A DNA stretch of 64,000 nucleotides, taken from positions 124,001-188,000 of the forward strand of contig JAICWP010000005.1 of the NCBI GenBank assembly GCA_025934735.1. Reading direction: 5' to 3'. The stretch's first letter is position 1. Each line of letters opens with the position of its first letter. Shown one piece after another: positions 3,809 to 29,649 of this stretch. This DNA comes from Terriglobales bacterium (GTDB taxonomy: Bacteria; Acidobacteriota; Terriglobia; Terriglobales; Acidobacteriaceae). The translations under genes were made by a program, and so were the position numbers. A model generated the notes under the pieces. The model was not told the origin of the DNA. It was given only the letters and a program-made list of their open reading frames with translations, and did no database searches.

Positions 3809-4753
3809 CTACCGGCTACCCACTGCCGACTCCCGTTCCTCTTCCCACGACCGCTCCAAGCCCTTGATCAGTGCCCACACGGCTTTATTCAGCGGCGTCG
3901 GCACACCCGTCTTCTCGCCCCACTGCACGATGGCGCCATTCATGAAGTCCACTTCCGTTTGCCGCTTGGCCAGAACATCCTGCAGCATGCTGGCTTTGTG
4001 CTTGCCGGGCGCATTGGCGCCCTTCATCACCATATCCCAGGGTTCGCCGTGCAGCGTGATGCCCAGCGCCTTGGCCACAGCCTTTCCTTCCTCGATCAGG
4101 TCCCTGAACAACTGGCCGGTCGGCGGCAGAAACGTAGCCGCACCATGGTGCAGCAGGGTGAGCGCGCCCACCGGATTGGTGGAGGCGTTGAAGATCAGCT
4201 TGGTCCACTGCGCCCCGCGCGCGTCTTTCAGTGGAATTGTATTCATGCCCGATCCGGTGAGCATGGCCGCTAGCTCCTCCACCCGCTGCATCGGCGTGTT
4301 CGTGGGCTCGAAGGGGCCGATCCAGGTATCGCCCTTGATGTCATAGCCGATGTGCCCGGGCTCAATGGGATGGCCGGCGGGAAAGGTGGTGCCGCGGATC
4401 ACGTACTTGACGTGCTCCGCGATGAGTTCCTCGTTGCCCACGCCATTCTGCACTGAGCACACCGCGCTGTTCTCATCGAAGGCGCGCGCCGCCTGGGCGA
4501 TGGCTGAGCGCGTGTGAATGCTCTTGGTGGCAACTATGCCGTAGTCGCAGCGCGGTATTTCAGCGGCATCGCTGGTCGCGTTCAGGCGGGCGGTGAAATC
4601 GGCGGCGCCGGAAAGCCGCAACCCGCGCTGGCGGATAGCCTCCACGTGCGGCTTCCACACGTCATAAGCCCAGACTTCGTGCTGGCCGGAGCGCGCCAGG
4701 TGCGCGGCAAACAAGCTGCCCACCGCGCCGCAACCTACAACGCAGACCTTCAT
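3809..4753 (-). CDS. 2-dehydropantoate 2-reductase (ApbA/PanE) family protein, copy 1
   Basis: A 314-residue NAD(P)H-dependent reductase of the ketopantoate reductase family. The N-terminal Rossmann motif GCGAVG is at residues 8-13. The C-terminal helical domain has the WTKLIFNASTNP region that carries the catalytic lysine. A second member (9349-10323) lies in the same block and is clearly homologous along its length, so the pair is likely to have a pathway role beyond pantothenate synthesis. The last residues, RESAVGSR and stop, come from a repetitive intergenic word also found at the end of iscS. The substrate is uncertain; PanE is possible. Confidence 0.85.
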   Translation of the reverse strand: MKVCVVGCGAVGSLFAAHLARSGQHEVWAYDVWKPHVEAIRQRGLRLSGAADFTARLNATSDAAEIPRCDYGIVATKSIHTRSAIAQAARAFDENSAVCSVQNGVGNEELIAEHVKYVIRGTTFPAGHPIEPGHIGYDIKGDTWIGPFEPTNTPMQRVEELAAMLTGSGMNTIPLKDARGAQWTKLIFNASTNPVGALTLLHHGAATFLPPTGQLFRDLIEEGKAVAKALGITLHGEPWDMVMKGANAPGKHKASMLQDVLAKRQTEVDFMNGAIVQWGEKTGVPTPLNKAVWALIKGLERSWEEERESAVGSR

Positions 4754-6258: not shown

Positions 6259-7530
6259 CTACAAATGCGCGCCGCACAGCTCGGCGGCAGTCAGAGCATA
6301 GATTTTGGTGATCTCCACCAACGTCTTGATGTCCACCTTCTCGCCTTCGGCATCGCGCGGCCCGCTGGAAGGACCATAGTTCACCGTATCAATGGCAAAG
6401 CGGGTCATCACCGAGGCGTCCGAGCACCAGAGAACCGTGTCATGTCCCGCCGGCTTGCCCGTAATCCGCTGATGGTTGGCTTCAATCGCCTTCACCATGG
6501 GATGATCGGCGGCAATCGTTGCACCGGGCACGGAAACAAAGGTCTCGAACTCCAGCCCGTAGTCGGGATATTGCTTCTGCAACTCGCGGAACAGAGCGCG
6601 CGCTTCGCGCCGGGCCTGCTGCAGCGTCATCGTGGGCGGCACCCGCAGGTCCAGAAAGAGATCGGCGCGGTCCGGGGTGCGGCTCACCCGCCACGGATGC
6701 CCGGCCTGCAGGCATCCAATGTTGGCCACGCCCTGATGCCCGCCATACGCGGTTTTCTTCTCCCATTGCTCCGTCCACTTCACCACCGCATCGAGCACGT
6801 CTTTCATGCGGCGCGTGGAGGTCTTCTGCGCCCGGCCTTCGGCGAAGGCGCTGTGCACATAGATACCATGGGTGGAGATCCGCACCCACAGCGAGCCAAA
6901 GTGTTCCAGCACCACGTTCATGTCAGTGGGCTCGCCCAAAATGCACATGTCAGGCAACACGCCGTGGTTCACCATGTAGTGCGTCCCGACGCCGTAACCA
7001 CGGTACTGTTTGCCCTTGTACTCGCCCCACTGCGTCTTTTCGATCTCGCCGGCCACCGCGCCGATAATGATGTCGCCTTCCAGCTTCACCCCGGCGCGTT
7101 TCAGCGCGCGCACCGCGTGGGTGTAGCACACCAGCGCGCCTTTCATGTTGTAGATGCCCAGGCCGTAAATCATCCCGTTCTTGATCACAGCTTTGGGCTT
7201 GTAGCCCAACCCGGTCAGGAAGGGCTCGTCGCCAGTATTGGAAGTATCCATGTGGCCGTTGAACATCAGGCTCTTGCCTTCGCACTCGCCATCCCAGCGC
7301 GCAATCACGTTGGCGCGGCCCTCCTCCACCTCCTGCCAGGTAACGTTCAGGCCGAGCCGTTCCAGGGCGGCCTTCATGTACTCGGCCATCCGGCCTTCTT
7401 CGCCGGTGGGGCTGGGAATATTGATGACGTCGCAGCACATGGAAACAATCTGCGGCTCGTCCACCTCGGCCAGGATGCGTTCAGCCAGCTTGGCGGGAAG
7501 GCCCGATTCTTTCTTTTGCGGGGCGGCCAT
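6259..7530 (-). CDS. M20 family metallopeptidase-like amidohydrolase (ArgE/DapE/ACY1 type), altered catalytic residues
   Basis: A 423-residue M20 fold protein with catalytic and dimerisation domains. The first metal motif GHMDT is intact (H93, D95). The position normally held by the bridging aspartate in GRGxxDMKG reads GIYNMKGAL here, giving Asn128, and the usual EE pair that carries the catalytic base reads AGEIE (residues 160-164). These changes in two core motifs suggest either changed chemistry or reduced activity. It sits between two M24 proteins in the same direction. The family normally removes acyl groups from amino acids or cleaves dipeptides; the substrate here is not known. Confidence 0.8.
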   Translation of the reverse strand: MAAPQKKESGLPAKLAERILAEVDEPQIVSMCCDVINIPSPTGEEGRMAEYMKAALERLGLNVTWQEVEEGRANVIARWDGECEGKSLMFNGHMDTSNTGDEPFLTGLGYKPKAVIKNGMIYGLGIYNMKGALVCYTHAVRALKRAGVKLEGDIIIGAVAGEIEKTQWGEYKGKQYRGYGVGTHYMVNHGVLPDMCILGEPTDMNVVLEHFGSLWVRISTHGIYVHSAFAEGRAQKTSTRRMKDVLDAVVKWTEQWEKKTAYGGHQGVANIGCLQAGHPWRVSRTPDRADLFLDLRVPPTMTLQQARREARALFRELQKQYPDYGLEFETFVSVPGATIAADHPMVKAIEANHQRITGKPAGHDTVLWCSDASVMTRFAIDTVNYGPSSGPRDAEGEKVDIKTLVEITKIYALTAAELCGAHL

Positions 7531-7558
7531 AGGTCAGGTCAATTGAGGAGCGCGTTGC

Positions 7559-7690
7559 AGTATAGCTGGCTAGCTTGCTGGCTGGCTAGCTAGCCGACGG
7601 GCTCATAGTTACAACTACCTGCCACGCTAGTCAGCCAGGCAGCTATTCAGCTAAACAGGTCCATCCGCGTTAATCCGCGGCCAATGAAGT
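7559..7690. repeat. TAGC-word degenerate repeat block plus AATCCGCGG word
   Basis: Between the M20 and second M24 genes there is a run of GCTGGCTAGC-like words (about 7560-7655), followed by a CCGCGTTAATCCGCGG word (about 7666-7681). A decayed relative of the second word is near 6212-6240. Similar TAGC blocks lie at 12845-12920, 27394-27470 and 41150-41200. No gene is seen. Confidence 0.6.
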
Positions 7691-7693
7691 TTT

Positions 7694-8887
7694 TTAAACT
7701 CGCGCCGCGTTCGCCAGCCGAAAATCGTCCGGATAGGTGCACAACTTCTCGTTTCCTGTTTCGGTGATCAGAAAATTGTCCTCCAGGCGCAGGCCGCCAC
7801 CCTGCGGCCAGTAAATGCCCGGCTCGATGGCCAGCACCATGCCCTTGCTCATAGTCCCCGTGCCCGCCTGGTGCGCATAGGGCGGCTCATGCGCACGCGC
7901 GCCCACGCCGTGGCAGATGGGATGGGAAGGCTGCCCAGGATAGCCTCCCTCGGCGATGCGCGCGCGAATCAGCCGGTCCAAGCCGGGAAAGTCGGCGCCG
8001 TCGCGCACATAGCTTACCGCCTCGTTGAACACCTTCAGCAACAGTTCGAGCAGCTTCTGATATTCCTTGGTCAGCTCGCCGGGACACGCGTTCTTGGTCA
8101 AGTCGGTCCAGTAACCGTCGGCGCATACCCAGATCTCGAACAGCGTAGGCTCATTCTTCTGAATGGGACGGTCGCCGGTAGCGGTAAAGGTGCGAATCCC
8201 CGGCCCCGACCAAACCAGGGTGAAAGCTCGCGCCATCTCCACCTTGCCCTGATAGCCGACGCCAATGCTGTGCACATAGCCTTCGTACATGGCACCCACT
8301 TCGCTCTCCTTCATCCCGGGACACATGTGCTCGCGGGTGTATTCCATGGCCAGCGCCGCCAGTTCGTTGGCCAGGCGCATGCGCTCGATCTCCTGCGCCG
8401 TCTTAATGGCGCGCGCCTCTACCAGCACCGGGGTGCCATCCACCACCTCGCGCGACACTTTCTTGAATGCATCGAAAAAATTCTGCGTGGGCGTGGTCGG
8501 CTCGCCCACCATGCGGTCGGCGCTCTGCGTGCCCATGTTCAGTTCCAGGCCGACCTTATCGCCTAGCCCGCGTTCCCGGATCACCTGCAGGGCAATATCC
8601 AGGGCGCGGTATTGCGGGGGACGCAGGTCGCGCTCGTCGTAGCCCTTAAAGAGCCGCAGGTCGCGGGTCCAGGAATTGCGCTCGGCATCGGCCTGCTGTG
8701 GCTCCAATGCGATCAGGGTGGGCTCGCCTTCCTGCGGAAACACCACCGCGTCGTAGCCCTTCATGCCCCAGTAATTAGTGAGATAGAGAACGTTATCAGG
8801 CGCGCGCACCACCAGCGCGCTCAGGCCGCGCTCTTTCAGCAGGGCGCGCATGCGGTCGAGCTTCGGCTTGTCAATGGGATAGGGCAT
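7694..8887 (-). CDS. M24 family Xaa-Pro peptidase-like metallohydrolase
   Basis: A 397-residue creatinase/prolidase-type protein with the N-terminal domain (residues 1-160) and the pita-bread domain (165-390). Unlike its neighbour at 5051-6196 it keeps a plausible dinuclear metal site: E251 in place of the first Asp (LFEIWV), D262 (WTDLTK), H326 (CHGVG), E355 (IEPGIY) and E369 (RLEDN). It is therefore the likely active enzyme of the pair. Its ATG is 2 nt after the stop of the upstream small secreted protein, which suggests translational coupling. It could cleave a dipeptide with a C-terminal proline or another amide in the pathway. Confidence 0.85.
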   Translation of the reverse strand: MPYPIDKPKLDRMRALLKERGLSALVVRAPDNVLYLTNYWGMKGYDAVVFPQEGEPTLIALEPQQADAERNSWTRDLRLFKGYDERDLRPPQYRALDIALQVIRERGLGDKVGLELNMGTQSADRMVGEPTTPTQNFFDAFKKVSREVVDGTPVLVEARAIKTAQEIERMRLANELAALAMEYTREHMCPGMKESEVGAMYEGYVHSIGVGYQGKVEMARAFTLVWSGPGIRTFTATGDRPIQKNEPTLFEIWVCADGYWTDLTKNACPGELTKEYQKLLELLLKVFNEAVSYVRDGADFPGLDRLIRARIAEGGYPGQPSHPICHGVGARAHEPPYAHQAGTGTMSKGMVLAIEPGIYWPQGGGLRLEDNFLITETGNEKLCTYPDDFRLANAARV

Positions 8888-8889
8888 GT

Positions 8890-9336
8890 TCAGGGATGAG
8901 GGACCTCGCGCATGATTTTCCAGGGCCGGGGAGTGGGAATGCCGACGTGCCGTCCCGGGATCACCAGGAGCAACTCGCCGTCGCTATTGCTACTGACCTG
9001 CATCTTCCAGTTCATCGCTTCACCGGAATCCTGATCTTTCGTATCAAACGAAAGAGTATCGCCAGCGATTTTTGCATCGGTGATCTCGCTTTCGCTGCCC
9101 GATTTCTCGGCTGACGTCAGATTGCCATCGTTGTCTAGATTAATATTTGCGCCGGTCATGGAACCGGTCAGCTGGTTGTCCTTTGCTCTGAGCGTCAGCG
9201 TGGCAAACGTTTTGCCCTGGAATTTCGCATTCCAGATTCCCGCGAAACGTTGCGCCGAAGTTTTGCTCTGCGCTCCGGCAGAAATGGCGACGGCCATCAG
9301 CAACAGCCCTGCTAAATGCAGCGGAGTCGATTTCAC
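8890..9336 (-). CDS. Small secreted protein of unknown function
   Basis: A 148-residue protein with a clear signal peptide (residues 1-22, hydrophobic LAGLLLMAVAISA, cleavage near AGAQS). The mature part is short beta-rich sequence of the kind seen in lipocalin-like or extracellular beta-barrel domains (repeated strands, LTLRAKDNQLTGSM, a hydrophilic middle, and a final PWKIMREV). The start is GTG at 9336, with GGGAGG 4 nt upstream. It lies 12 nt after the panE-like copy 2 and 2 nt before the M24 gene, so it belongs to the same transcript. I do not recognise a family and assign no function. Confidence 0.75.
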   Translation of the reverse strand: MKSTPLHLAGLLLMAVAISAGAQSKTSAQRFAGIWNAKFQGKTFATLTLRAKDNQLTGSMTGANINLDNDGNLTSAEKSGSESEITDAKIAGDTLSFDTKDQDSGEAMNWKMQVSSNSDGELLLVIPGRHVGIPTPRPWKIMREVPHP

Positions 9337-9348
9337 GCGTCCTCCCTT

Positions 9349-10323
9349 TCAGTTACTTGCTGGGACCTTAGTAGCGACCGCGCGGTTCTCCTCAGTAAAA
9401 TTCCACGAAGCTTCCTTTGCTTTGATCAGCCGGTACATGGCGGTATGCAGGGGAGCGGGAACACCTGCGTGTTGCGCTTCACGCGCAATTGCGCCGCAAA
9501 GAAAATCAATCTCGGTCGGCAGATGGTGCCGGACGTCATAGAGCATGGAGGGCGGATGGTTGGTCTGCGCGCCGATCTTGTTCATCTCCCAAGGGTCCTC
9601 GTGCAGTTCGACGCCTGTAGCCGCGGCCACGGTCTTGCCCTCTTCAATGAGCGCGTGCAGCAGGTGACCCAGGTCGGAGAATTCGCCCTCCGCCGAAAAA
9701 TGCGGTGAATGCGGCAGTTCGGTCAGCGCCGACGCCGCATTCACCGAAGAATTGAAAATCAGCTTCGACCACTGCGCCGGACGCGCATCCTCCAGCGCCT
9801 CCGCCTTCAGGCCACCCGCTACTATCAACTCGGCCGCCTGCTGGACCACGCTGAAGGGCGTGCCCCGTGGCTCGAACGGCCCAATCCAGGTGGCGGTATC
9901 GAGCTCGTACTGCACGTGCGTGTCGCTGTGGCGCGTGCCGCTCATGAAGGTAGTGCCACGGATCACCCCGCCGCGCGTGTGCGCCGCGATTATTTCCTCG
10001 CTGCCCAGGCCGTTCTGCGCGGAAATCACCGCGCCGTTGTCGAACAACGATCCGACCGGCGCAAAAGCTTCTTCCGTCTGCGTCGCCTTGCAGGCCACAA
10101 TACCCAGGTCGAATTGCGGCAGCTCGCGCGCGTCCGTGCTCGCCTTGAGCTTGGCCGTGAAGTTGTGAGCCGGTGACGTGCTGGTTACGCGCAGCCCATG
10201 GCGGTTTAGGGCCTCGGCGTGATCCCGCCGCCGCACGAATGCGTAAACTTCGGCGACCCGCGCCAGGTGCGCGGCATACAGGCTGCCGATGGCCCCACAA
10301 CCGATGATGCAGACGCGCTGGAT
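9349..10323 (-). CDS. 2-dehydropantoate 2-reductase (ApbA/PanE) family protein, copy 2, apparent AUC start
   Basis: A 324-residue paralogue of 3809-4753. The ORF as defined by normal start codons begins at a GTG (10236), after the Rossmann motif, but the same frame upstream encodes RVCIIGCGAIGSLYAAHLAR, exactly the family N-terminus. Between the stop of the coxL-like gene (10362-10360) and that motif there is no in-frame ATG, GTG or TTG. A perfect AGGAGG (10337-10332) lies 8 nt before an ATC codon at 10323, which aligns within one residue of the start methionine of copy 1. I therefore place the start at ATC. Alternatives are a sequence error, or readthrough of the preceding TAG, which is in frame. 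The family call is firm. Confidence 0.8.
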   Translation of the reverse strand: MQRVCIIGCGAIGSLYAAHLARVAEVYAFVRRRDHAEALNRHGLRVTSTSPAHNFTAKLKASTDARELPQFDLGIVACKATQTEEAFAPVGSLFDNGAVISAQNGLGSEEIIAAHTRGGVIRGTTFMSGTRHSDTHVQYELDTATWIGPFEPRGTPFSVVQQAAELIVAGGLKAEALEDARPAQWSKLIFNSSVNAASALTELPHSPHFSAEGEFSDLGHLLHALIEEGKTVAAATGVELHEDPWEMNKIGAQTNHPPSMLYDVRHHLPTEIDFLCGAIAREAQHAGVPAPLHTAMYRLIKAKEASWNFTEENRAVATKVPASN

Positions 10324-10337
10324 AGCTTCTGCCTCCT
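10324..10337 (-). promoter_or_regulatory. Perfect Shine-Dalgarno AGGAGG before a non-canonical AUC start
   Basis: AGGAGG at 10337-10332 is followed by 8 nt and then ATC at 10323-10321. The surrounding bases (GCTAGCAGCCAGG...) resemble the TAGC-word repeats of this window, so the ribosome-binding region may have been built from such a word. Confidence 0.6.
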
Positions 10338-10359
10338 GGCTGCTAGCTTTGGGCTGGCT

Positions 10360-12831
10360 CTACGCCGGCACGGCGCGCGGCTTCACCCGAGCCGGCTTCT
10401 TGCCTTTGCCCGCCTGCTGCATCAGGTGGTACACGCGGTCGCCGTTGTTGAACGAATCGTCAATGATGATGCCCTTGTCGAACAGCGCATCCTGCAGCGC
10501 GGCCGAAAGCGTATGTATCGGCGCTGCCCCGCCTTCTCCCATGCCCTTGGCGCCGTTGAAGCTGTGGGGCGAGGGCGTCTGAATGTCGCCAAACTTCACG
10601 TTCGGCATGTTCACCGACGTGATCGGCGTGTAGTCGCTGAAGGTGGAGGTCAGCATGTTGCCTACTTCATCGTAGAAGCAGCCCTCCATCAGCGCCGCGC
10701 CAATGCCGTGCGCCGTCGCGCCATAAACCTGGCCTTCCACGATGGGCGGGTTGATCACGGTGCCGCAGTCGTCCACCGCCACGTAGTCGAGGATGCGGGG
10801 CACATAGGTATCGCGGTCCACCTCGAGCACGGCAATGTGCAGCTGAGAAGCGTAGGTCAGCGTGAGGTTGCCGTACTTCTTCGCCTTGTCCGGCACCTTA
10901 AACGGCGCGCGCCAGATGTAGCGGCAGTTCAGGGTGATTTCGTGCAACTCTTCCGGCATGACCGCGCTGTTCACGTTGACAATGTTGGCCAGGCCGCCAT
11001 AGGGAATGCTGCGCTCGGTGCCGCGCACCCGCACCTCAGGCCCTTGCGCGCCGATGCCAAGCTCCAATTCATCTTCCTTCGCATTTAAAGTGAACGCCGC
11101 CAGGCGAAGCATCTCTTTCTTGAGTTTCTGCGCCGCGCCGTGCACCGCCGACAAGCCTGACACCGCGAACTGGCTGGCATAGGTCCCGGAAAACCCGGTA
11201 TGCACGTTGCGCTCGGTGTCGAAGCCGGTACGCACGGTGATCAGATCCGGCGTAACGTTGAGCAAGTCAGCCACGATCTGCGCCGCCGTGGTCTCGTGTC
11301 CCTGGCCCTGGGGGCAGGAGCCGACCGCCACCACGATCTCGCCGTAAATGTCGAGCTTCACGTTGGCGCCTTGCGAGTTGCCGGAAAAGGGCGCGTAGGG
11401 ATTGATGATCTGCGACTGCCCGAAGTTATTGGTACCGGAATCGAGCGTGGTGCCGATCCCAATCCCGATCAGGCGGCCGTCTTTGCGCGCCTCCGCCTGC
11501 TTGCGTTTCCACTCGTCCCAGCCGATCAGCTTTTTCCCGACCTCCAGCATCTTGGGGTAATTGCCGGAGTCGTAGACGCAGCCGTTGGGCGTGGTGTAAG
11601 GCATCTCCTCCGGGCGAATGTAGTTGCGCAGGCGCATCTCGTCGGCGGGAATCTTCAGCTCGTGGGCGCAGATGTCGCAGATGCGCTCCAGAAACCACAG
11701 GTGCTGCATGCGCGAGTAGCCGCGATTGGGGCCAACCGGGCACTTGTTGGTCACCACCTGGGTGAAATCAATTTTCGCGTTCCTGAAGCGGTACACTCCG
11801 GGAAACACCTGCGACCAGATGACGCAGCCCAGAGGCTCGTAGCGCGGGTAGGCGCCGCAGTCGTCTATGTGCCGCGAATCAATGGCGGTGATCACGCCAT
11901 TCTTATCCAGGGCCACGCGCGTGTTCAGGAACGTGCGCTCGTTGCCGTGGGCGCTGGAAAGCATGTGCTCGGTGCGCGTCTCCACCCATTTGACCGGCCG
12001 TCCCCCGCACTTGCGCGAGGCCAGGGCGCACACCGCCATCTGGGTGTAGTTGGTGATCTTGATGCCGAAGCTGCCGCCAATGTCGAAGGTCTGCACCCGG
12101 ATCTGGTCAATGTGAATGCGTAGGTGCGGCGCCAGAAACTGGATGGCAAACGAAGGAAAGGAATTGTTGCACCAGTAGTAGAGGCGGCCGTCCTTATTGT
12201 CCCACTGGGCGATGATGACGTTCGGCTCGAGCGGGGTGCTGGAGAAGCGGTGGAAGTGCAGGCGGTCAATTTCCACCACGCTGGCAGCCTCGCGGAACGC
12301 CTTCTCCACATCGCCGTACTCGAAAACGCCGCGCCATACCACGTTGGTGCCGGCGTTCTCGTGCAGAATGCTCTCGTTCTTCTCCGCCTGCTCCGCATCG
12401 GTCACGGCGGGAAGCGGGTCGTAATCCACCTGCACCAGCTCGGCGGCGTCCTCGGCCAGGCGCGGCGATTCCGCCACCACTGCCGCCACCGGCTCGCCCT
12501 GGAAACGCGCCTTGCTGCCGGCCATGGGATAGTCGGCAATTTTCTGGCACTGGTCGGGGCCGATCTCGATGAACGGGCTGGTCAGGGATTCGACTTCGCG
12601 CCCGGTCAGCACCGCCGCCACACCGGGCAGCGCCTCGGCGGCCGAGGTGTTGACGTTCACCACCCGGGCGTGGGCATAGGGCGAGCGCACGAAAGCGAGG
12701 TAGAGCATCTCGCGCAGCTTAATGTCGTCAATGAACTTGCCCTGGCCGCGCAGCAGCCGTCCTTCTTCCTTGCGCGGCACGCGCTGCCCTACCCAGCGCT
12801 TCTGCCCGTTGCTCTTGTCTTGATCAGCCAT
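10360..12831 (-). CDS. Molybdenum hydroxylase large subunit (xanthine dehydrogenase/CoxL family)
   Basis: An 823-residue molybdopterin-binding subunit of the xanthine oxidase family. The N-terminal RRLLRG-like domain (VGQRVPRKEEGRLLRGQGKF) is followed by the Mo-binding domain with GGSFGIK (about 252-258) and the C-terminal catalytic glutamate in GMGEGG (about 766). The active-site loop reads GPNRGYSR (about 367-374). This is neither the VAYRCSFR loop of form I CO dehydrogenase nor the AYRGAGR loop of form II, so the true substrate is unlikely to be CO. The ATG at 12831 is taken as the start rather than a TTG two codons earlier. It forms a complex with the coxM- and coxS-like products encoded upstream. 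It probably hydroxylates an aldehyde or N-heterocycle. Confidence 0.9.
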   Translation of the reverse strand: MADQDKSNGQKRWVGQRVPRKEEGRLLRGQGKFIDDIKLREMLYLAFVRSPYAHARVVNVNTSAAEALPGVAAVLTGREVESLTSPFIEIGPDQCQKIADYPMAGSKARFQGEPVAAVVAESPRLAEDAAELVQVDYDPLPAVTDAEQAEKNESILHENAGTNVVWRGVFEYGDVEKAFREAASVVEIDRLHFHRFSSTPLEPNVIIAQWDNKDGRLYYWCNNSFPSFAIQFLAPHLRIHIDQIRVQTFDIGGSFGIKITNYTQMAVCALASRKCGGRPVKWVETRTEHMLSSAHGNERTFLNTRVALDKNGVITAIDSRHIDDCGAYPRYEPLGCVIWSQVFPGVYRFRNAKIDFTQVVTNKCPVGPNRGYSRMQHLWFLERICDICAHELKIPADEMRLRNYIRPEEMPYTTPNGCVYDSGNYPKMLEVGKKLIGWDEWKRKQAEARKDGRLIGIGIGTTLDSGTNNFGQSQIINPYAPFSGNSQGANVKLDIYGEIVVAVGSCPQGQGHETTAAQIVADLLNVTPDLITVRTGFDTERNVHTGFSGTYASQFAVSGLSAVHGAAQKLKKEMLRLAAFTLNAKEDELELGIGAQGPEVRVRGTERSIPYGGLANIVNVNSAVMPEELHEITLNCRYIWRAPFKVPDKAKKYGNLTLTYASQLHIAVLEVDRDTYVPRILDYVAVDDCGTVINPPIVEGQVYGATAHGIGAALMEGCFYDEVGNMLTSTFSDYTPITSVNMPNVKFGDIQTPSPHSFNGAKGMGEGGAAPIHTLSAALQDALFDKGIIIDDSFNNGDRVYHLMQQAGKGKKPARVKPRAVPA

Positions 12832-12844
12832 AATCAAAAGTCGT

Positions 12845-12920
12845 TAAAGAGCTGACTAGCTGCCTGGCCTGAAACGACGTATTTAGCTAGTCCGCCAGTC
12901 AGCTAGCTCGTCAGCTCGCC
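12845..12920. repeat. TAGC-word degenerate repeat block overlapping the coxG-like 3' end
   Basis: This block repeats GCTGACTAGCTG / TTAGCTAGTCCGCC / GTCAGCTAGC words. The stop codon and last two codons of the coxG-like gene lie inside it. It fills the whole gap between coxG and coxL. Confidence 0.6.
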
Positions 12921-27385: not shown

Positions 27386-27393
27386 ACCCGATT

Positions 27394-27470
27394 CCTAGCT
27401 GGCTAGCTTTCTGGCCGGCTAGCTTGGTGCCGTTAGCGAGTGAGCGAGTTAGCTACCCAACTAGTCAGCG
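27394..27470. repeat. TAGC-word degenerate repeat block after ffh
   Basis: Repeated GCTGGCTAGCTTTC and GTTAGCTACCCAACTAG words, the same family as at 7559, 12845 and 41150. It lies immediately after the ffh stop codon. Confidence 0.55.
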
Positions 27471-28819: not shown

Positions 28820-29074
28820 ATGGCGACGGATCAGGGTGGGGATATGCGAGCACTGGTGGAGCAAATTGCCAAGGCTCTGGTTGACGAACCCGCGCAGGTT
28901 TCAGTACAAGCCGTTGATGGAGAGCAAGTTACGGTTTTGGAATTGCGTGTTGCTCCCAATGACTTGGGCAAAGTGATTGGCAAGCAGGGCCGCACGGCGC
29001 GCTCCATTCGCACCATCCTGAGCGCTGCCGGCATGAAGTTGCGCAAGCGTTTCACCCTGGAGATTTTGGAATAG
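28820..29074 (+). CDS. khpA: KH-domain RNA-binding protein KhpA (YlqC family)
   Basis: An 84-residue protein that is almost entirely one KH domain, with the RNA-contacting [15 protein letters not shown] loop (about 53-67). KhpA pairs with KhpB in other bacteria as a global RNA binder linked to cell elongation and division. It has the usual place between rpsP and rimM. Its TAG stop (29072-29074) overlaps the apparent ATA start of rimM (29071-29073). The C-terminus [10 protein letters not shown] is typical, so the stop is in the expected place. Confidence 0.95.
29059..29073 (+). promoter_or_regulatory. Ribosome-binding site and AUA start overlapping the khpA stop
   Basis: GGAG (29059-29062) precedes ATA (29071-29073) by 8 nt. 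ATAG combines the rimM start and the khpA TAG stop. An ATG here would remove the khpA stop, so the ATA is not easily explained as a single sequencing error. Confidence 0.5.
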
Positions 29075-29649
29075 CCGAAGCGTTCATCACCATTGCCCGC
29101 GTGGTCAAAACCCAGGGGCGGCGGGGCGAAGTCGCCGCAGAACTCCACACTGATTTTCCGGAACGTTTCCCCGAGCGCGAGCGCCTTTATGCCCTGGCGA
29201 CCGACGGCACGCGCCGCGAACTGCACCTGGAAGATTCCTGGCCGCACCTGGGGCGTTATGTCTTCAAATTCCGCGGCGTGGATTCCATAAACGCGGCTGA
29301 GGATCTGGTGGGCTGCGAACTGCAGATTCCCGCCGCCGAACGCGCGACCCTGGAGTCGGGAGCGGCCTACGTCAGCGACCTGGTGGGCTGCACCGTGTGC
29401 GACATGGCTAATAATGGAACCGAGATTGGCACTGTGGCTGACGTCCAGTTTGGGGCCGGCGAAGCTCCCCTGCTGGTGGTGCGTTCCGAAAAAAAGGAAT
29501 TCCTGATTCCTTTTGCCGCGGAATTCCTGCAAAGCCTGGACTTGCCGGGACGCAGGATTGAAATGCGCTTGCCGGAAGGACTGCTCGACGTGGATGCACC
29601 GCTGACCGAAGAGGAAAAACGGCGGCAGCGCGGGGAAGAAGAAGAATAA
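29071..29649 (+). CDS. rimM: Ribosome maturation factor RimM, apparent AUA start
   Basis: A 192-residue RimM, which binds S19 and assists 30S head maturation. It has the N-terminal RimM domain and the C-terminal PRC-barrel (from about residue 100, [10 protein letters not shown]; later [11 protein letters not shown]). A GTG at 29101 is the only canonical start in the frame, but it would delete FITIAR, the first strand of the domain. Reading back to ATA at 29071 gives an N-terminus of [16 protein letters not shown], with GGAG 8 nt upstream. From the previous in-frame stop near 28960 up to 29101 there is no ATG, GTG or TTG. The tail is Glu-rich (EEEE). Confidence 0.9.

Follow-up and report, generated by a model that had tools for sequence, protein, structure and literature searches.

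The question raised by this locus is where translation of a panE-like gene begins when its reading frame offers no canonical start codon ahead of the conserved N terminus. The gene lies on the minus strand of the window, a 64,000-nucleotide stretch of contig JAICWP010000005.1 (Terriglobales bacterium, an acidobacterium from soil), in a frame of 336 codons from stop to stop after TAG 10362-10360, and the first ATG, GTG or TTG of this frame is GTG 10236, 29 codons downstream of an ATC at 10323. An earlier note on this DNA had proposed that the gene starts at the ATC, behind a perfect ribosome-binding sequence. Its description of the region was confirmed in the sequence: in frame, there is no ATG, GTG or TTG between TAG 10362-10360 and GTG 10236, and an AGGAGG (10337-10332) precedes ATC 10323 with an 8-nt spacer (CAGAAGCT, 10331-10324, minus strand). 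Read on the minus strand, the leader consists of the TAG followed by AGC CAG CCC AAA GCT AGC AGC CAG GAG GCA GAA GCT, and the frame continues from the proposed start with ATC CAG CGC GTC TGC ATC ATC GGT TGT GGG GCC ATC GGC. In the predicted mRNA fold, the ATC is unpaired and half of the Shine-Dalgarno sequence is paired. The pattern AGGAGG-N8-ATCCA occurs three times in the 4.94-Mb genome (backwards pattern as control: 0); at the other two sites, the frame is still open upstream of the ATC, as judged by inspection of a short translation. Coordinates are given in Table 1.

Table 1. Positions of the features discussed, numbered from the first letter of the window.
Feature	Position	Strand	Basis
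Putative start codon ATC of the panE-like gene	10321..10323	-	No canonical alternative in frame; orthologue starts
AGGAGG Shine-Dalgarno sequence, 8-nt spacer to ATC	10332..10337	-	Sequence; duplex energy -10.0 kcal/mol with assumed anti-SD
panE/apbA-like gene, 324 aa from ATC (coordinates include stop)	9349..10323	-	Pfam PF02558, PF08546; TIGR00745; solved relatives
GTG, first canonical start in panE frame, behind Rossmann motif	10234..10236	-	ORF list, Pfam
Spacer from upstream stop to Shine-Dalgarno sequence, with GCTAGC, a word found in other spacers too	10338..10359	-	Sequence
CO dehydrogenase/aldehyde oxidase-type large subunit, upstream operon gene	10360..12837	-	No NCBIfam cut-off reached; TAG 10362-10360 in frame with panE
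Small gene between panE and M24 gene, no family assigned	8890..9336	-	ORF, neighbourhood comparison
M24-type (Xaa-Pro peptidase-like) gene, conserved operon	7694..8887	-	Below NCBIfam cut-offs
M20 / ArgE-DapE-type gene, conserved operon	6259..7530	-	Below NCBIfam cut-offs
Paralogue panE2, ordinary ATG start (ATG 4753)	3809..4753	-	48% identity to panE
rimM, apparent start ATA 29071	29071-29649	+	GGAG upstream; relative L209 has ATG at the same place

Translated from the ATC, the protein belongs to the 2-dehydropantoate 2-reductase (PanE/ApbA) family, with both Pfam domains complete: ApbA (PF02558) is matched over profile positions 1-149 of 150 and ApbA_C (PF08546) over positions 2-125 of 125. 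TIGR00745 matches from residue 3 onwards with 213 bits (cut-off 141), and the best matches among proteins of known structure (5hws, 5ayv, 3hwr) are annotated as 2-dehydropantoate 2-reductases. As only this subfamily model passes and none of the NCBIfam equivalog models listed scores above its cut-off, the substrate may differ from ketopantoate. From GTG 10236, only positions 29-149 of the ApbA profile are covered and the Rossmann glycines are gone, which bears out the earlier objection that this start would delete the motif; sitting behind it, GTG 10236 is probably not the real start of panE. The Pfam and NCBIfam profiles start two to three residues past the ATC codon, and panE2, starting at ATG 4753, begins one residue closer to the motif, within the one-residue distance that had been claimed.

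For the comparison of start codons, loci were drawn from a scan of a genome collection (best 80 of 182 panE relatives kept), from whole-genome searches with panE matches in 22 of 100 genomes (E up to 1e-60) and from a further whole-genome search with panE in 52 of 398 family members (E up to 1e-130), the window's genome being counted in both of the latter. With 17 more start regions added, the pool of 147 loci yielded 106 distinct start regions. Seventy of these, with at least 60% identity, were counted as orthologues; the remaining 36 are the window's own copy and 35 sequences below 60% (paralogues, Actinomycetota and others). The start of each orthologue was taken as the codon homologous to the ATC if canonical, else as the nearest ATG, else as the nearest GTG or TTG within 14 codons.

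By this rule, every one of the 70 orthologues starts on a canonical codon that is either homologous to the ATC or at most four codons away from it, which firmly places the start of the family at codon 10323 and answers the alignment check that had been proposed. The start falls exactly on the homologous codon in 54 (49 ATG, 5 GTG) and one to four codons off in the other 16. The homologous codon itself is ATG in 49 orthologues, GTG in 5, ATC in 3 and something else in 13; in the three with ATC, it is the second codon after a canonical start (TTG twice, ATG once), so that ATC serves as the start of panE in 0 of the 70. The window's panE is the only gene of the 71 that lacks a canonical start codon there. 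Among the sequences left out, L077, an actinobacterial homologue with 53% identity, has neither ATG nor GTG nor TTG where the start is expected ahead of the motif, and CTG may be its start codon.

The duplex energy of Shine-Dalgarno sequences was computed with an assumed anti-SD, CACCUCCU; the 3' end of the 16S rRNA was not found in the assembly, where a 17-nt pattern had no match and a 13-nt match was no rRNA according to Rfam. With this assumed anti-SD, the window's panE reaches -10.0 kcal/mol, tied as the strongest of the 71 (median -3.0) with L105, which has a GTG start; AGGAGG is found in the leaders of none of the 70 orthologues. Among these, the 11 GTG or TTG starts have stronger Shine-Dalgarno sequences than the 59 ATG starts (medians -4.0 vs -2.6; one-sided p = 0.010, which serves as a guide only, because the orthologues are related to one another). 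Belinky et al. (PMC5622118) describe stronger Shine-Dalgarno sequences with GUG and UUG starts and call the association compensatory, and the orthologue trend runs in the same direction. A weak start codon together with an exceptional Shine-Dalgarno sequence is what compensation would look like. Of 344 genes sampled in the window's own genome, 28 have a value of -10 or stronger and 10 carry AGGAGG. As the orthologues, the beginnings of the Pfam and NCBIfam profiles and the strong Shine-Dalgarno sequence all agree, codon 10323 is well supported as the start position of panE.

We consider it fairly likely that AUG was lost in this lineage and that AUC initiation at 10323 is carried by the strong Shine-Dalgarno sequence. 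The gene would then encode a working PanE/ApbA family member in a conserved operon, and the site of its ancestral ATG would now be an ATC. The perfect AGGAGG with its 8-nt spacer would place the 30S subunit on this codon, where the initiator tRNA would put in fMet despite the mismatch at the third position. The expected yield would be lower than from AUG, and initiation would probably be sensitive to IF3, because IF3 discriminates against such codons, as has been reported for infC and sigR. We infer three things: the correctness of the base, the decoding of AUC as a start and the action of IF3 on it. Because none of the 70 orthologues starts on ATC and the closest one found is only 80% identical, a recent mutation or a base error is possible.

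If the ATC is real and the start was lost recently, PanE would be negligible or absent and the frame a memory of past selection, a reading that we regard as unlikely. It would account for an ATC start that is found in none of the orthologues, and panE2, which lies 5.6 kb away and has a normal ATG, could cover the activity. This paralogue is no recent replacement, however, as 20 of the 22 genomes with panE, including this one, have at least two homologues. The state of the protein was assessed in the 48 of 63 genomes (62 loci, L004-L065, and the window's own) in which the panE, M24 and large-subunit genes are all complete. Of 81 residues that are invariant in the other 47 genomes, the window's panE keeps 80, and when normalised to the operon neighbours its identity ranks 39th of 48 from the lowest, slightly more conserved than the neighbours predict and thus with no excess divergence. 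Such normal constraint without decay makes an old pseudogene less likely but is compatible with a very recent loss. The AGGAGG, absent from all 70 orthologue leaders, also argues against loss, since nothing would favour its gain in a decaying gene. The order large subunit - panE - M24 - M20 is kept in most of the listed loci that reach far enough; the small gene at 8890-9336 had tblastn matches (E <= 1e-10), among the loci listed, only in its own genome.

Next in order, and improbable in our estimate, is a sequence or assembly error, the organism having ATG at 10323. A single base change would restore the ATG of 49 of the 70 orthologues, and the 100 genomes searched included none of the same genus. 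Such an error would leave the unusual Shine-Dalgarno sequence unexplained, and it would affect one base where two are unusual: the +4 base is C in the window's panE and A in 53 of the 54 orthologues that start at the homologous codon, and the second codon is CAG, against AAG or AAA in most relatives. Because the +4 base is unusual too, a real local change from an ATGAAG-like to an ATCCAG-like sequence is mildly favoured. Furthermore, none of the eight genes flagged in a screen of the genome described below clearly needs a base error, with three of the eight without explanation and the screen not designed for errors.

A possible source of such a local change had been seen in the likeness of the Shine-Dalgarno region to a TAGC repeat, as if the repeat had replaced the original start. 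The likeness is weakly supported: the leader resembles the GCTAGC-rich spacers of the window (GCTAGCCAGC in the repeat, GCTATCCAGC in the leader), and only 2 of 1156 window chunks, probably the repeat itself, align with the spacer repeat at 7550-7659 as well as that repeat aligns with the leader. Against dinucleotide shuffles, the alignment was not significant in any of five comparisons (p 0.06, 0.08, 0.20, 0.25 and 0.52), and replacement of the start by a GCTAGC repeat is possible but statistically weak. Words rich in GCTAGC or CTAG are clustered in the spacers 7550-7659, 10338-10359, 12851-12910 and 27390-27469. Over the window, 44 CTAG are observed where 222 would be expected from base composition, a five-fold deficit; 24 of them fall within the 10.7 kb not covered by predicted genes.

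A shorter protein, made from GTG 10236 or another downstream codon, would make use of the frame's first canonical start and is very improbable: it would lack the motif that defines the family, and each of the 70 orthologues begins on a canonical codon ahead of that motif, 6 to 11 codons from the first Rossmann glycine. Least probable of all is readthrough of TAG 10362-10360 into a fusion of the large subunit with PanE, which the earlier note had offered as the other explanation: the large subunit and panE share one frame across the TAG, but 38 of the 70 orthologues have an in-frame stop at most 12 codons upstream of panE (32 have none), the codons before the start vary between loci, though some tblastn matches extend into them, and the Shine-Dalgarno sequence would be without purpose.

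For AUC initiation at 10323, the other genes of this lineage provide a setting. PF05198 was detected in 29 of 31 genomes from two families of the order, one of them the window's own, and the infC loci were compared by tblastn. All 29 (this genome and 28 relatives, L115-L142) have ATC at the conserved N terminus of infC, with GGAG shortly upstream in 28; in 17, the stretch from the last in-frame stop to the conserved IF3 core is entirely free of ATG, GTG and TTG, and the other 12 have a canonical codon elsewhere in that stretch. The infC of the window's genome (L114, contig C45 near 284.3 kb) reads CCGGAGGTTTGT-ATC, which contains GGAGG (-10.7 kcal/mol), and encodes a complete IF3 of 183 aa from its own ATC, residues 5-170 of which match a solved bacterial IF3. 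With ATC at this place in every infC locus compared, it is very likely that the translation apparatus of this lineage already initiates on AUC.

The window itself holds a further gene of this kind. The apparent ATA start of rimM overlaps the TAG stop (29072-29074) of the preceding gene (28820-29074), which we take to be KH-domain-like, as ATAG, and the canonical GTG 29101 falls inside the conserved RimM domain. In the best 30 loci, this one included, of 39 genomes with a match, the start of rimM reads ATA in six and ATC in four, and the 25 codons before the conserved motif contain no canonical start in any of these ten; the ATA of L205 lies seven codons further up than in the other ATA loci. 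For infC and rimM alike, the evidence comes from sequence comparison. Gene callers limited to ATG, GTG and TTG would truncate both panE and the window's rimM inside the fold.

Two screens covered 357 genes in 455 kb of the same genome. Behind strong Shine-Dalgarno sequences, ATC was not enriched (4 of 237, with 3.5 expected; for ATG, 28 of 364 in the same sample). ATC at this position thus being at chance level in the 455 kb, genome-wide use of AUC starts is rejected, and since ATC is not over-represented there, AUC starts are few in this genome. At two of the four ATC sites, no canonical start competes nearby: at panE and at a site on the plus strand at C44:114612 (in L185). At the latter, the ATC stands behind GGAGG (-10.7) near the start of coding, and GTG and ATG follow within a few codons; it could be another ATC start, or chance.

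The second screen looked for coding sequence extending upstream of the canonical starts. It is blind to infC-like genes with a canonical codon within about 15 codons, and therefore gives no full count of non-canonical starts. The eight genes that it flagged are panE, rimM, an amino acid permease, a PMT-type glycosyltransferase, prfB, a redoxin, an outer-membrane efflux gene and a TPR gene. The N terminus of the permease (L190:14895-16475, plus strand) lies at CTG (CTG AGC ACT GAT), where relatives have TTG or GTG; among 30 loci, CTG was found in this genome, in L270 and, less surely, in L262. The glycosyltransferase (L187:17843-19474, plus strand) has no canonical start before a GTG adjoining the conserved GADEPRY region, and a CTG start is possible. 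In prfB, an in-frame TGA was seen, presumably the site of the +1 frameshift. The redoxin, a Redoxin/AhpC-type frame on the minus strand (L182:5949-6782 plus preceding codons), contains W-TGA-P-F-C and is joined to a DsbD_N-like domain; it is a candidate selenoprotein with selenocysteine at the TGA. A tRNA-Sec match in this genome scores 70.6 bits (cut-off 47); 5 of 14 control genomes also have a match above the cut-off. In 20 sampled stretches of the genome, one tRNA was found (Glu).

A broader interpretation, which we advance tentatively and hold to be doubtful, is that the order keeps a small set of genes with ATN or CTG starts (infC on AUC, rimM on AUA or AUC, sporadically further genes, among them panE and the amino acid permease) whose translation would be set jointly by the level of IF3, panE being a recent recruit that gained its strong Shine-Dalgarno sequence when AUG was lost. 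If the AUC of panE is real, the locus would represent a natural loss of a start codon balanced by a strong Shine-Dalgarno sequence, and infC, rimM and panE would provide three testable non-canonical starts in one genome.

Several known systems resemble panE. The earlier view of AUC initiation as very rare has to be softened, as ATC starts are on record for infC of Streptomyces (PMC5472188) and rnhC of Listeria (PMC13068326), and ATC stands at the start of infC in this genome as well. In E. coli, ATC works as a start at a reduced rate (as cited in PMC13068326), and PMC10158994 reports that IF3 disfavours weak third-base pairs in vitro. In the portions of the open-licence literature available to us, no report was found on the infC start codon of Acidobacteria or on an AUA start of rimM. 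As in a gene starting on AUC, panE has no canonical start upstream of its conserved N terminus and an ATC at the homologous start. A close parallel is infC, with a non-canonical start (ATT in E. coli, ATC in Streptomyces) and autoregulation by IF3 (PMC5472188). Both genes have such a start behind a strong Shine-Dalgarno sequence, whereas the ATC of infC is conserved over the two families searched and that of panE occurs in one genome only. The sigR gene of Streptomyces shares with panE a strong AGGAGG-type Shine-Dalgarno sequence, a rare start codon and a start misplaced by automatic annotation; it differs in that its codon is GTC, present in 32 of 34 Streptomyces, repressed by IF3 and proven by mutagenesis (PMC5472188), while the AUC of panE is known from sequence. 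Conservation of the non-canonical start in relatives is a mark of regulated starts such as those of infC and sigR; panE lacks it, its ATC being private to its genome among those compared, with an ATC start in 0 of 70 orthologues. In rnhC of Listeria monocytogenes, the ATC start belongs to a gene other than infC, as in panE, and according to PMC13068326 its initiation site had been confirmed experimentally; that paper lists rnhC among the genes whose start usage is fixed across 60,690 genomes, in contrast to the single genome for panE. The rimM of the order resembles panE in having an ATN codon with a Shine-Dalgarno sequence where a relative has ATG, in the window's genome as well, and differs in that ATN starts occur in several genera and that the window's rimM overlaps the preceding stop. 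AUC starts are already known, and panE is a further example of a known phenomenon; the set of infC, rimM and panE in one lineage is a more interesting lead than panE alone.
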